Shown: piece by piece, positions 6,018 to 11,012 of the stretch
How the letters are laid out: the number at the start of each line of letters is the position of its first letter
Numbering within the stretch: position 1 is the first letter of the stretch
NCBI RefSeq assembly: GCF_000711225.1
Contig: NZ_JOMG01000004.1
Span: 248,001-312,000 of the forward strand
Direction of reading: 5' to 3'
Source: Pelobacter seleniigenes DSM 18267
GTDB taxonomy: Bacteria > Desulfobacterota > Desulfuromonadia > Desulfuromonadales > Geopsychrobacteraceae
DNA: 64,000 bases
Translations under genes and position numbers: made by a program
The notes under the pieces: generated by a model
Told to the model about the DNA's origin: nothing
What the model saw: only the letters and a program-made list of their open reading frames with translations
Database searches by the model: none

Positions 6018-6053
6018 AATAAAGCGCCCTGCACGGGTGCTTTATTGTATTTT
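6018..6053 (+). terminator. Rho-independent terminator of the liv operon
   Basis: A 12-bp stem (6018-6029 with 6035-6046, one G-U pair) closes a 5-nt loop and runs into a T-rich tail (TTGTATTTTAT). The stem base is A/T-rich on both strands, so it could work in both directions. Confidence 0.75.
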
Positions 6054-6146
6054 ATCCTCATCAATCCTGTATAATTGACCGGATACATGGCCTTTCTTTC
6101 CGTGCGGCCCGGTTTTGCTGATCAGTAAATGGGAGCTGATGAACCC

Positions 6147-7472
6147 ATGCGGAATTTATTCTCAACCGTGACCAAAAAAATGATCATCGGTTACCTGGTG
6201 ATCGTTGTTTTTAGCCTTTCAGCAGTCGGTTTTGCTTTGTTCCGTTTGCATGAGCAAACCCGTGCCACTGAGCAACTGGTCAATGTCGAGTTCAGGATGT
6301 TTGAACTTGTCCGCGACCTGCAGCAGAACCTCCTCGCCCAGGAAAACATCGAAAAGCAACTACTGATTTTGCGTGACCCAACCCTGAAGGAATTACGGCT
6401 GAACCGGAGCCAGGAATTTACCCGCCTGGCCGTTGCTCTCAACCGACCGCCGTTAAGTGACGAAGTCCGCACCCTCATCGATCTGGTTGAAAAATACCGA
6501 CTGGGTGAAAACCAGCTCTCCGACGCCTTGTTCTGGGACAACTGGACTAACGCAGAGACGATCGCCAATGATACGACGGTTCCGCTGCGGGTGCAGATCC
6601 TCAATTATCTGGTGGAATTCAGACAGCGGAAACAACAGGAGATCAATACCGGCCTGGCGCGACTGTCTGAGCGTACCGGGGATGCCTTTCAAACTACGGC
6701 GCTGTTGACTCTGATTGGCATCTGTCTGTCTGCGCCGGTTTCGTTGACGGTGATGCTCAGTATCCATCGTTCGGTCAGGGCTCTGAAAAAAGCGACGCAG
6801 AAGATCTCGGCTGGCAGTTTCGAGCATCAGCCGGATTTGAAAGGCGGCGATGAATTCGCCCAGCTGGCCAACGATTTCCGGATGATGGGGCAGAAACTGC
6901 GTGAGCTTGAGCAGTTGCGCCTGGATGCCAACCCCTTGACCCAATTGCCGGGCAACCTGGCCATCGATCGTGAAATCGAGCGCCGTATTACCGGCAAAGA
7001 ACCCTTTTCTCATCTCTATATCGATCTGGATAATTTCAAGGCTTACAGTGATCGCTATGGCTATAAGGCCGGCAGTGATGTGCTGGCTATGGTGGGTAAC
7101 CTGCTCAAGGATGTGGTCAATGAGTTCGGAACCGGGGAGGATCTGGTCGGACACATCGGCGGGGATGATTATGTGATCCTGACCGATTTGATCTCCGGCG
7201 AATTGCTGGCGCAGCAAATTGTTAAAAAGTTTGAGGAAACCATCCCTGAGCACTATAATGCCAAAGATCGTGCTGCCGGTAATTTTATTGGCAAGGATCG
7301 CTATGGAATTAAGCGGACCTTTCCGCTGATGACTATTTCAATTGCTGTGATTCCTTCGACCCATTATGAGTATCCTTCGCGTCTGGCCATCAGTCAGGAT
7401 TGTGCCAGATTGAAAGAATATCTGAAAATTCAGGAAGGCAGCAATTATATGCTGGAGAAACGTAAAGAGTGA
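6147..7472 (+). CDS. Membrane GGDEF-domain nucleotide cyclase with altered base-contact residues
   Basis: The 441-residue protein has one membrane helix near residues 12-32, a periplasmic helical sensor region to about residue 180, a second membrane helix (about 183-207), a HAMP-like linker and a C-terminal GGDEF domain from about D260. The domain starts with LTQLPGN, keeps the metal-binding DLDNFK, and has GGDDY at 338-342 in place of GG[DE]EF. The two residues that contact guanine in canonical enzymes (Asn and Asp nine residues apart in PleD) are both serine here: S301 in FKAYSD and S310 in KAGSDVL. Ser at the second position is the mark described for Hypr GGDEF enzymes such as Geobacter GacA, which make cyclic AMP-GMP. 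ATG 6147 is preferred over in-frame ATG 6129 because GGGAG lies upstream. The next gene overlaps by 4 bp. Confidence 0.82.
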   Translation: MRNLFSTVTKKMIIGYLVIVVFSLSAVGFALFRLHEQTRATEQLVNVEFRMFELVRDLQQNLLAQENIEKQLLILRDPTLKELRLNRSQEFTRLAVALNRPPLSDEVRTLIDLVEKYRLGENQLSDALFWDNWTNAETIANDTTVPLRVQILNYLVEFRQRKQQEINTGLARLSERTGDAFQTTALLTLIGICLSAPVSLTVMLSIHRSVRALKKATQKISAGSFEHQPDLKGGDEFAQLANDFRMMGQKLRELEQLRLDANPLTQLPGNLAIDREIERRITGKEPFSHLYIDLDNFKAYSDRYGYKAGSDVLAMVGNLLKDVVNEFGTGEDLVGHIGGDDYVILTDLISGELLAQQIVKKFEETIPEHYNAKDRAAGNFIGKDRYGIKRTFPLMTISIAVIPSTHYEYPSRLAISQDCARLKEYLKIQEGSNYMLEKRKE

Positions 7473-7885
7473 AAAAACAGCTGATTTTATTGCCCCTTCT
7501 AGTTGTCCTGTCAGGTTGTGCCACATTGTTCCCCGAGCCGAAAATAAGGGCGGCGAAGGATCTGGTCGCTTTTGAGCAGGCCTTCTCACAGTTCGAAACA
7601 ATGCACTCCACCGCGGAGTTGGAAAGCTTTGTGGCCATTTATCCGAACAGTCCCTGGGCGGCGCGGGCCAATTCGGTTTTGAACTGCGTCGACGACCTCG
7701 AACAGCGTAATGCCAGGGTGCAAAAGCTGCAGGCTGCCAACCAGGAACTGGAGAATAAGATCAGCCAGTTGAAAAAGCAGCACAAGGAGCAGCTTACCGA
7801 ACTGCAAAATGAAAATGGCCAACTGACGGAAACAATCGAACAGCTCAAAGGTTCTCTGATTGAACTTGAGCAGAGACCGCAATAA
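7469..7885 (+). CDS. Small coiled-coil lipoprotein
   Basis: The 138-residue product starts with a lipoprotein signal (MKKQLILLPLLVVLSGC), with lipidation expected at Cys17. Residues ~35-75 resemble the tetratricopeptide-like start of envelope lipoproteins (FEQAFSQF...SPWAARANSVL), and residues ~78-135 form a Lys/Glu/Gln-rich coiled coil (ENKISQLKKQHKEQLTELQ). The start is GTG, overlapping the stop of the GGDEF gene as GTGA, so translation is probably coupled. Asp at +2 is absent, so outer-membrane sorting is likely. It may be an accessory of the upstream sensor; no specific family was recognised. Confidence 0.75.
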   Translation: MKKQLILLPLLVVLSGCATLFPEPKIRAAKDLVAFEQAFSQFETMHSTAELESFVAIYPNSPWAARANSVLNCVDDLEQRNARVQKLQAANQELENKISQLKKQHKEQLTELQNENGQLTETIEQLKGSLIELEQRPQ

Positions 7886-8858: not shown

Positions 8859-11012
8859 TCAGTAGGCGAACCGGGCGAAAGGGGAGTGCGAGGAGGCGGC
8901 GAGGGCATCGCTCAGGGTGTGGATGCCATGGGCTTCGAGCAGCGGGATCAATTTCAACAGAACCTCCCCGGTGACAATGGCATCCCCAAGCGCGGTATGG
9001 CGGCCGACAATGGTCACGTTCAGCCGCGCCGCCAGTTCTTCCAGGGAGTGGGAATCCTGATTGGGATGAACGATGGAGGAGAGGAGCAGGGTATCGATGA
9101 CCGGATTGGCAAAGACCAGTCCGGTTTTTTCTTCCTGCAGTTGCAGAAAGCGCATGTCAAAAGCCGCGTTGTGCGCAACCAATACCGAATTTTCCGCAAA
9201 TTGATGAAAGTGGGGCAGGACTTTGTCAATGGTCGGCTGTCCTTTGAGCAGCTTCGGTTCGATGCCGTGGATTGCCACCGATTCCGGCGGGACAAAGCGT
9301 TTCGGATCAACCAGTTGGTCGATCACCTCATGGTAGAGCAACTGGCCATTAACAATGCGAATGGCGCCCAGTTGGATGATTTCGTCCCCTTGCGACGGGT
9401 TGAGACCAGTGGTTTCGGTATCAAAGACGACATAGGTCAATTTGTTGAGAGGGACCTGCCCCAGTTCGTCCAGGTCCCCCCGGTTGAACAGGTCGAATTC
9501 GTAGGAGACGGGACGGTGTTCCACCTCGCTCTGCAGAGCCAGACGGCGGTCCTGATCAAGGGGCGGCAGGACAATCATCACCCCGGCGCAGCGGCGGTCG
9601 TCCGCGCTTAAAAATGACATCCTGCCGGCCATCTTTTCAATGGCCTGCCTGAAGTTAAGCAGGCGGCCTTTGTCATCACTGATCAACGGGGTTGACAGCC
9701 AGCTCTCCAGAAGATTCCGGCTGACATTGATTCCGGGCCAGGACAGCACCAGTTCGATGTCGTTTTTATCATTACTGGTAATGGTCAGCAGCAGTTCAGC
9801 AACGCTGGTCTGGGTCTGCAACAAGCCGCCAAGGTGACCAAAGGCCTGTACCATGGAGTAGCTGTCAACCTGCAACCAGAGGCCTTTTGGGGCCAGCGGT
9901 GTGGTTTTGAATTCAAACCGTTCCGACAGGTTTTTGCTGATTACGTCAAGCAGGTTGTCGGCGAGGATATTTTCACTTTTGGTCAGCTCGTGCTGATGAA
10001 AGGCGTAGCTGGTCCTGGCCTCATGAACCTTCTGTTCCAGGATTTGGGAACTGAAATCGATTTTCTGCCGATAGCGCTGCAGGTCTTCGGCGCTGAGTTG
10101 GGGCTGGGCCAGGATGGTCCCGATGGATTCACGGATTTCCCCCAGGTATTTCTGCTGGTCGTCGATTAACGATTGAATCAGGGCGTCACGCCGGTTGTCG
10201 GCCTCGATTTGCTGGGTCATGTCTTCCAGGGTGAGGACGATGCCGGAGATCTGACGTTGGGAGGATTGTTCGGTGAAAAAGGGCGCCATATTGACCCGCA
10301 GGTAGTGATCATGCCGCAGGCTCATCATGGTGCTGTTGACCAGTTTGCTGCGTCCTGATTGGTGGCACTTGTGCAGCATCTCCAGGCCGTGGACAATCGG
10401 GTCGCGATCCAGAATGCTGAAGATGGAACGGCCCAGGCCGAGAATGCCACTACGCTGAGCGGCAGCACCGGTCTGATCCGTCTTAAGCATGTCCTGGGCC
10501 TGCTGGTTGTAGAGCAGGACCTGACCGTCGGTGTTGCAGACAATGACTCCGTGGGGGAGTTCCGACATCAGGGCGGCCAACCGGGTCCGCTCTTCGTTGA
10601 TGGTGGCCTGGGCAACGGCAATTTTCCCGGAGACGTCCTGCTTCAGTTCGGCAAAGGCATCGGCGGATTGGTTGATGATCTGGCTGAGATATTCGATCTC
10701 CTTGGAGGCCGTTTTCAGGTGGATACGATGTTCCGGGTTGACCGAGGAGATGATGCGGGCACTCTCCGCCAGCTTCAGGGTCGGGATGATGTAGTCATTG
10801 AACAGCAGGTTGACCAGAGCGCCGATAATGAAAAGAATGGTGATTGTTCCGAGCAGGGGGAAGGGGACCAGTTTGCTGAACATTTCCCCCAGCGCCTCCT
10901 GCTGGGCATCATTGAGACTGGCCCAGGAGCCGATCAGGCTGGCAGCGATAATGCTGGTGACCGCAAAGTATATCGCACCGAGAAAAATCCAGTATTTAAA
11001 ACTCGGTTTCAT
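8859..11012 (-). CDS. Membrane PAS / degenerate histidine-kinase protein fused to DnaQ-type 3'-5' exonuclease
   Basis: The 717-residue protein has two N-terminal membrane helices (about 8-30 and 50-72), a HAMP-like helix, a PAS domain (about 145-250), a kinase-like region (about 280-500) and a C-terminal DEDDh exonuclease (about 525-705). The exonuclease has all catalytic residues: D531 and E533 in FDTETTG, D619 in HNAAFD, and H672/D677 in RHTALGD, so it should be active on DNA or RNA ends. The kinase-like part has no H-box histidine where HxLRTP would lie and no clear N or G boxes, so it is probably a pseudokinase. DnaQ-like exonucleases tied to membrane sensors occur in Geobacter and some gammaproteobacteria but the role is not established. 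It stands alone, facing the EamA gene. Confidence 0.85.
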   Translation of the reverse strand: MKPSFKYWIFLGAIYFAVTSIIAASLIGSWASLNDAQQEALGEMFSKLVPFPLLGTITILFIIGALVNLLFNDYIIPTLKLAESARIISSVNPEHRIHLKTASKEIEYLSQIINQSADAFAELKQDVSGKIAVAQATINEERTRLAALMSELPHGVIVCNTDGQVLLYNQQAQDMLKTDQTGAAAQRSGILGLGRSIFSILDRDPIVHGLEMLHKCHQSGRSKLVNSTMMSLRHDHYLRVNMAPFFTEQSSQRQISGIVLTLEDMTQQIEADNRRDALIQSLIDDQQKYLGEIRESIGTILAQPQLSAEDLQRYRQKIDFSSQILEQKVHEARTSYAFHQHELTKSENILADNLLDVISKNLSERFEFKTTPLAPKGLWLQVDSYSMVQAFGHLGGLLQTQTSVAELLLTITSNDKNDIELVLSWPGINVSRNLLESWLSTPLISDDKGRLLNFRQAIEKMAGRMSFLSADDRRCAGVMIVLPPLDQDRRLALQSEVEHRPVSYEFDLFNRGDLDELGQVPLNKLTYVVFDTETTGLNPSQGDEIIQLGAIRIVNGQLLYHEVIDQLVDPKRFVPPESVAIHGIEPKLLKGQPTIDKVLPHFHQFAENSVLVAHNAAFDMRFLQLQEEKTGLVFANPVIDTLLLSSIVHPNQDSHSLEELAARLNVTIVGRHTALGDAIVTGEVLLKLIPLLEAHGIHTLSDALAASSHSPFARFAY

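Follow-up and report, generated by a model that had tools for sequence, protein, structure and literature searches.

A membrane-bound LPGN-type GGDEF protein of Pelobacter seleniigenes with serine at both base-contact positions: a probable lipoprotein-coupled Hypr cyclase of the GSU1937 kind

The window, by which is meant the whole stretch of 64,000 nucleotides of DNA that was analysed, carries at positions 6147..7472 (+ strand) the gene of a TM-HAMP-GGDDY cyclase of 441 aa, counted from the ATG at 6147. The reading frame is open throughout 6129-7472 (+) and would also allow a form of 447 aa starting from the ATG at 6129; considering that the alignments of most near orthologues begin at residue 6-7 of this longer form, ATG 6147 is the better-fitting start. 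In the current work residue numbers (S307, S316, K313 and others) are given with respect to the 447-residue form, so that S307 and S316 are identical to S301 and S310 of the original prediction, which was numbered on the 441-aa form. A terminator-like hairpin (6018..6046, +; a consensus match only) is located between the upstream liv transporter operon and the cyclase gene, and suggests that the latter is a transcription unit apart from this operon; such terminator-like sites number five in the 64-kb stretch, as compared to 2.6 expected from shuffles.

The encoded protein possesses two membrane segments, placed by eye, which flank a periplasmic sensor domain predicted to be helical (approximately residues 41-188, 6249..6692, +; helices in the model). 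This is followed by a HAMP domain (residues 209-259, 6753..6905, +; Pfam PF00672, 44.4 bits) and an LPGN-type GGDEF domain (approximately residues 266-444, 6924..7460, +; Pfam PF00990, 53.1 bits), the signature of which reads GGDDY in the sequence (7158..7172, +), as had been claimed, with Asp replacing the catalytic Glu. The HAMP match, the membrane segments and the modelled periplasmic helices agree with the earlier description of a membrane-bound protein with a sensor. The fold model, computed for the monomer and without ligand, has a mean pLDDT of 90.6 and a pTM of 0.54, and its C-terminal domain was superposed by VIA-align over 159 residues each on PleD 2wb4 (Z 19.9, rmsd 2.2) and on 6d9m (Z 19.2, rmsd 2.9).

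The GTG start codon (7469) of a lipoprotein gene (7469..7885, +) overlaps the stop codon of the cyclase gene. Its product (P0002), a coiled-coil-like protein of 138 aa with the lipobox LSGC, has a conserved C-terminus of the form EQLK.LLI..E.R. Across the family of relatives described below, 126 rows extend 500 bases or more past the cyclase, and 110 of these have an ORF matching a profile of this lipoprotein immediately after it, 76 of the 110 showing a lipobox by pattern; this count is partly circular, given that the profile was itself generated from 76 ORFs chosen by position and lipobox (77/130, from which L089 was dropped as spurious). When applied at E<=1e-3 to the loci outside the 129 family rows then in the set, the profile matched only L017, a copy of a locus already included. 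The coupling to a lipoprotein gene put forward in the original prediction is therefore seen both in the overlap at this locus and in its relatives.

The periplasmic sensor bears a weak likeness to that of Escherichia coli GlrK/QseE over 45 columns (hhalign probability 33.5%), the score being 25.4 against 7.9-14.0 for eight shuffles and 11.6 for the reversed sequence. The lipoprotein compared with QseG reaches 16.0, against 10.1-15.1 for five shuffles. Escherichia coli QseG hits PF13942 (Lipoprotein_20) at 1.5e-80; this family is absent for P0002 among the best 25 of 49 Pfam rows (down to E 0.045), and likewise among the three Pfam rows of the lipoprotein accompanying the relative L185. Membership of the lipoprotein in the QseG family is thus unsupported, with no PF13942 among the rows listed and a score barely above the shuffles. 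Elsewhere in the window, 8859-11012 on the - strand encodes a protein of 717 residues in which an apparent N-terminal membrane segment and a long region resembling a sensor (both by eye) precede a C-terminal exonuclease domain (Pfam RNase_T, 528-684), an unusual combination.

In order to place the two base-contact positions, the cyclase was aligned by phmmer to 6d9m, a fusion of T4 lysozyme to a Geobacter GGDEF domain which we take to be the GacA construct of the GacA structure paper. The alignment contains no gap across the motif and positions S307 (7047..7049, +) on the Asn of 'VND' (the PleD N335 / GacA N339 position) and S316 (7074..7076, +) on the Ser of 'VGSQ' (the PleD D344 / GacA S348 position). 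In the GacA structure (PMC6456294), the base receives its two specific hydrogen bonds from Asn339 and Ser348. The claim of Ser at both guanine-recognition positions is confirmed by this alignment, and so is the register against GacA on which it depended, with Ser rather than Asn and Asp at both positions. The Hypr-type Ser at the second position is equally well founded, since S316 coincides with the Ser of 6d9m and Ser is found in 126 of 129 fetched relatives (the remainder being two Asp and one Asn). Chance or misalignment as an explanation for the two Ser residues is ruled out by the ungapped motif alignment together with the nearly fixed S316.

With regard to the published Hypr features, Ser/Thr at the PleD D344 position is present as S316, and the central Asp of the signature as D346, which is invariant (129/129); the 'Goldilocks' model (PMC6456294) needs this Asp together with the Ser. 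A GGDE[F/Y] signature with the catalytic Glu fourth is not what is found, the fourth residue being Asp here and in 128 of the 129 members; this rule is not strict, because the GGDDF protein GSU1937 has been reported active in one fusion. Where GacA has N339 as its sugar-edge contact, S307 stands instead; this Asn is a structural observation outside the published Hypr definition. The cross-dimer stacking position (IsPadC R537 / GmGacA Y304) is occupied by Leu277, in a register that is unsure as LPGN has one extra residue; under the same proviso, this column holds Leu in 82, Ile in 34, Arg in 8, Met in 3 and Phe in 2 of the 129 rows.

The cyclase's own genome yields 41 GGDEF matches, 40 of which could be aligned (the weakest, sub-threshold L079, did not align); the alignment comprises 41 rows for 40 proteins, because L008 and L051 contain the same gene. 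This cyclase and P0003 (L074) are the only ones with Ser at the D344 position, and none of the others has Ser at the N335 position. P0003 is a receiver-GGDEF protein with 6d9m as its best structure match (E 3.6e-45) and is, on sequence grounds, the GacA orthologue. A further protein of this genome, L007 (G000:C2:1390603-1391073), carries Asn at the D344 position (VGNSA) and the signature GGEEF.

Of the 136 genomes from the order, 113 contain a relative of the cyclase (E<=1e-20); at class level the figure is 219 of 277 (E<=1e-40). Members were fetched for part of the search matches, including 30 hand-chosen genomes from outside the order, and each of the 129 rows is a single ORF from a fetched locus scoring more than 185 bits, an arbitrary cut-off. 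They exclude L017 (the copy, of L009), the other GGDEF loci of the own genome, and L157-L166, which fall below the cut (L157-L159 being Asn/Ser and L160-L166 Asn/Asp); L038 and L039 are partial rows. Replacement of the Asn had been called unusual, a view that does not hold for this family: 68 of the 129 members have Asn at position 307, and the other 61 have Ser (30), Gly (30) or Ala (1), Ser swapping with Gly and Ala. In all 129 rows, including the 61 without Asn, D299, K304, D308, both Gly residues, D346, K429 and K433 are invariant, for which reason activity is favoured and wholesale decay of the domain is disfavoured. The I-site Arg is present in 2 of 129 members and missing in 127, which makes product inhibition of the GacA kind unlikely. 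No report of the Asn-less form was found in our searches of the open-access literature.

The history of position 307 was followed on a tree obtained by a quick maximum-likelihood search without the two base-contact columns, branch support being by SH-aLRT alone (of the 126 inner branches 70 are starred and 32 open, and there was a long-branch warning for L149, L152, L142 and others). On this tree, Asn versus not-Asn requires seven changes, or four when only starred branches are counted, and all states together require 15. The cyclase belongs to a clade of 50 rows (families f1, f3 and f7 together with record L009) in which no member has Asn at 307, with Ser in 27, Gly in 22 and Ala in 1, these residues interchanging; S307 as a second specific Ser mark is rejected on account of this interchange. 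We read the change as a probable loss of the sugar-edge guanine contact, in which small residues are tolerated, over a nearly fixed Ser. Within this clade conservation is higher in the GGDEF columns (0.74) than in the sensor (0.60). Lys313 (7065..7067, +), three residues before S316, is found in 43 of the 61 Asn-less members and in none of the 68 with Asn, two of which have Arg at this position. This Lys may be a replacement contact for the lost Asn; its presence and the loss of Asn are clustered on the tree, so that the counts, with too few independent cases, do not constitute an independent test. A link of Asn loss to the signature Tyr or to Lys313 was for the same reason set aside, there being too few independent contrasts (four on starred branches). 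Two members from genus g4 of f1, L145 (G068) and L148 (G069), carry Asn and Asp at the base positions and are LPGN nonetheless, possibly representing a return to a guanine-type site; G069 also carries a Gly/Ser member, L094.

GSU1937 has been described as the second cGAMP synthase of Geobacter sulfurreducens (PMC8835794). According to that report, it is the only GGDEF protein besides GacA with the Ser in this organism and combines HAMP with GGDDF; when it is deleted, a cGAMP reporter drops by about 25% or 70%, the extent varying with growth. One of four GSU1937 fusions was active in E. coli and generated cGAMP and c-di-GMP, while the wild-type protein and the other three fusions were inactive there (PMC8835794). 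Genus g77 of our genome set is taken to be Geobacter, because pilA-like matches 80-85% identical to the G. sulfurreducens pilin are present in five of its six genomes (best, 85%). The six fetched g77 members share the arrangement TM-HAMP, LPGN, FKSYND...KASEI and GGDDF, with the Asn kept, and the member from G253 matches the cyclase at E 2.9e-73 over residues 8-443. G253 has 33 GGDEF matches, which were read at 31 loci (L295-L324 and L185, except for a second domain in L322); two of these, L185 (TM-HAMP, GGDDF) and the GacA-like L310, have Ser at the D344 position. Another protein of this genus, L317 (G253:C1:3115939-3116409), has Thr at the D344 position and GGDEY, and is a possible further Hypr enzyme.

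On this comparison the cyclase very probably belongs to the GSU1937 kind, the match to GSU1937 itself being by description only. The assignment to the LPGN group made in the original prediction consequently stands, and the statement that the product of this group is not well established can be narrowed, given that GSU1937, which fits by description, was reported in PMC8835794 to make cGAMP and c-di-GMP. Since the Asn is retained in the g77 members, the activity reported for GSU1937 probably belongs to an Asn/Ser and not to a Ser/Ser enzyme.

GEMM-I riboswitches with A at position 20 are of the cGAMP type. The own genome contains 11 GEMM-I matches, one of which is under the Rfam cut-off, and position 20, read by eye from its position in the motif alone, is A in six and G in five. 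The use of A20 as a mark of cGAMP follows the G20A work cited in PMC6274999. The search for cGAMP-type riboswitches that had been proposed as a check was thus positive, with six of 11 being A20. Four of these six (at three sites) precede genes with CxxCH haem motifs and one precedes a gene resembling a chemoreceptor, in each case by eye; at L202 (G000:C2:717484-717700, -), a tandem A20-type GEMM is located before a CxxCH gene and a TolC-like protein (by eye). The own genome therefore very probably uses cGAMP, judging from these sequences, and GacA alone could supply it to the riboswitches.

A GacA match at E<=1e-60 is present in 118 of the 136 genomes of the order and in none of the 14 genomes of family f7 (G027-G040). 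The same 14 genomes gave no match to either of two exact A20 DNA patterns, which as exact patterns provide lower bounds, and the second of which covers an A20 form of the own genome missed by the first. GacA and the cGAMP-type riboswitches appear to have been lost jointly in f7. Five of its 14 genomes carry the Gly/Ser form at E<=1e-134 and two further ones have weak matches near 1e-25; the five Gly/Ser genomes contain four Rfam GEMM-I matches, all of them G20 (c-di-GMP type). Position 20 in these other genomes was read by script and by eye, 5 of 30 loci being unreadable by script. The Asn-less enzyme of f7 may act via protein receptors or make another dinucleotide. G063, G107 and G135, which have the Gly/Ser form together with GacA, contain both A20-type and G20-type riboswitches.

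The reading we favour, with somewhat better than even confidence, is that of an active, lipoprotein-coupled Hypr-type cyclase of the GSU1937 kind which would generate cGAMP and c-di-GMP under envelope control; that it is active, what it makes, how its dimer works and what the lipoprotein does are matters that we infer from the comparisons above. The lipoprotein specified by the adjoining gene would probably contact the periplasmic helical sensor, which would act via the HAMP linker so as to set the geometry of the LPGN-GGDDY dimer. In each half-site S316 would face the Watson-Crick side of guanine or adenine, so that both GTP and ATP are proposed to be accepted, and the most likely outcome would be a mixed product, 3',3'-cGAMP together with c-di-GMP. 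Loss of the Asn would remove the sugar-edge guanine contact, and ATP use may for that reason exceed that of GSU1937.

The protein might instead be a diguanylate cyclase in practice, in which other residues (for example Lys313, on the same helix) select guanine and only c-di-GMP is made, an outcome that we regard as unlikely. The distribution of Lys313 over members without and with Asn (43/61 and 0/68) would suit it, as would the five f7 genomes in which the Gly/Ser form persists, a GacA match is absent and the GEMM-I riboswitches found are all G20, and the active GSU1937 fusion made c-di-GMP as well (PMC8835794). However, S316 is nearly fixed and it is the Ser-to-Asp change in GacA that yields c-di-GMP only (PMC6456294), while Lys313 and Asn loss, clustered on the tree, are not independently paired. 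A shift in the other direction, in which the loss of both guanine contacts would turn the enzyme towards ATP, with cGAMP and much c-di-AMP or mainly c-di-AMP as product, seems less probable still. It draws on Ser348 and Asn339 being the two specific base hydrogen bonds of GacA (PMC6456294), on the Asn having been lost several times without ever returning in the clade of 50, where S, G or A stands in its place, and on the Hypr enzyme Bd0367, which makes some c-di-AMP according to PMC9140294; yet S316 fits guanine as well, nothing in the present results points to c-di-AMP, and no Asn mutant turned up in the literature consulted. If the active site were indeed rebuilt for adenine, this would be a GGDEF-type diadenylate cyclase under the control of an envelope lipoprotein, and an adenine-type site could explain its retention in part of family f7 without a GacA match or cGAMP-type riboswitches.

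Slightly behind this we place a dead domain, which would bind nucleotide and signal by contact, or would need the lipoprotein as no more than a scaffold. The replacement of the catalytic Glu by Asp, the change of both base contacts and the I-site Arg missing in 127/129 would suit such a domain; PMC8835794 moreover cites the GGDDF protein PA3258 as leaving c-di-GMP unaffected, and found wild-type GSU1937 to be inactive in E. coli. Against this, every other catalytic position checked is invariant in the 129 rows, one fusion with a GGDDF domain that fits the family did show activity (PMC8835794), and the GGDEF columns of the Asn-less clade are better conserved than its sensor.

The published view of how GGDEF enzymes choose their product turns on a single position, 344, with its Asp or Ser. 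The present family offers a set of natural variants (Asn/Ser, Ser/Ser, Gly/Ser, Ala/Ser) that bears on the role of the Asn and on its share in the output of cGAMP, c-di-GMP and c-di-AMP. Its conserved lipoprotein is a candidate input to cGAMP signalling. A GSU1937-type Hypr cyclase was already known; what would be new is a variant that appears to have lost the Asn contact.

Among known systems, GacA (GSU1658 / Gmet_1914; PMC6456294) resembles the cyclase in the Ser at the Watson-Crick contact and the central Asp of the signature, but is a Rec-GAF-GGDEF response regulator with Asn339, a catalytic Glu and an I-site; the cyclase represents a separate LPGN lineage, and its genome has both. With PleD and canonical diguanylate cyclases it has in common the GGDEF fold (Z 19.9), the Mg-binding Asp, the Lys and the GG, whereas it retains none of Asn335, Asp344, the catalytic Glu and the I-site Arg. 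GSU1937 is alike, by description, in TM-HAMP, Ser at the D344 position, a GGDD signature and the lack of EAL or HD-GYP. The g77 relatives of the GSU1937 kind further share the LPGN motif and the downstream lipoprotein gene; they are 33-34% identical, keep Asn at the N335 position and have a signature ending in Phe, as opposed to Ser and Tyr here. YfiN-YfiB of Pseudomonas aeruginosa likewise pairs a membrane HAMP-GGDEF enzyme with an outer-membrane lipoprotein from its own locus, although here no YfiR was seen and the best 25 of 49 Pfam rows of the lipoprotein include no OmpA domain. In QseE/GlrK-QseG (PMC6075780) a weakly similar sensor is found and the lipoprotein gene adjoins that of the membrane sensor, the output being a histidine kinase where the present protein has GGDEF. 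By analogy, the gene order suggests that the lipoprotein may steer the sensor in a YfiBN-like or QseEG-like manner.
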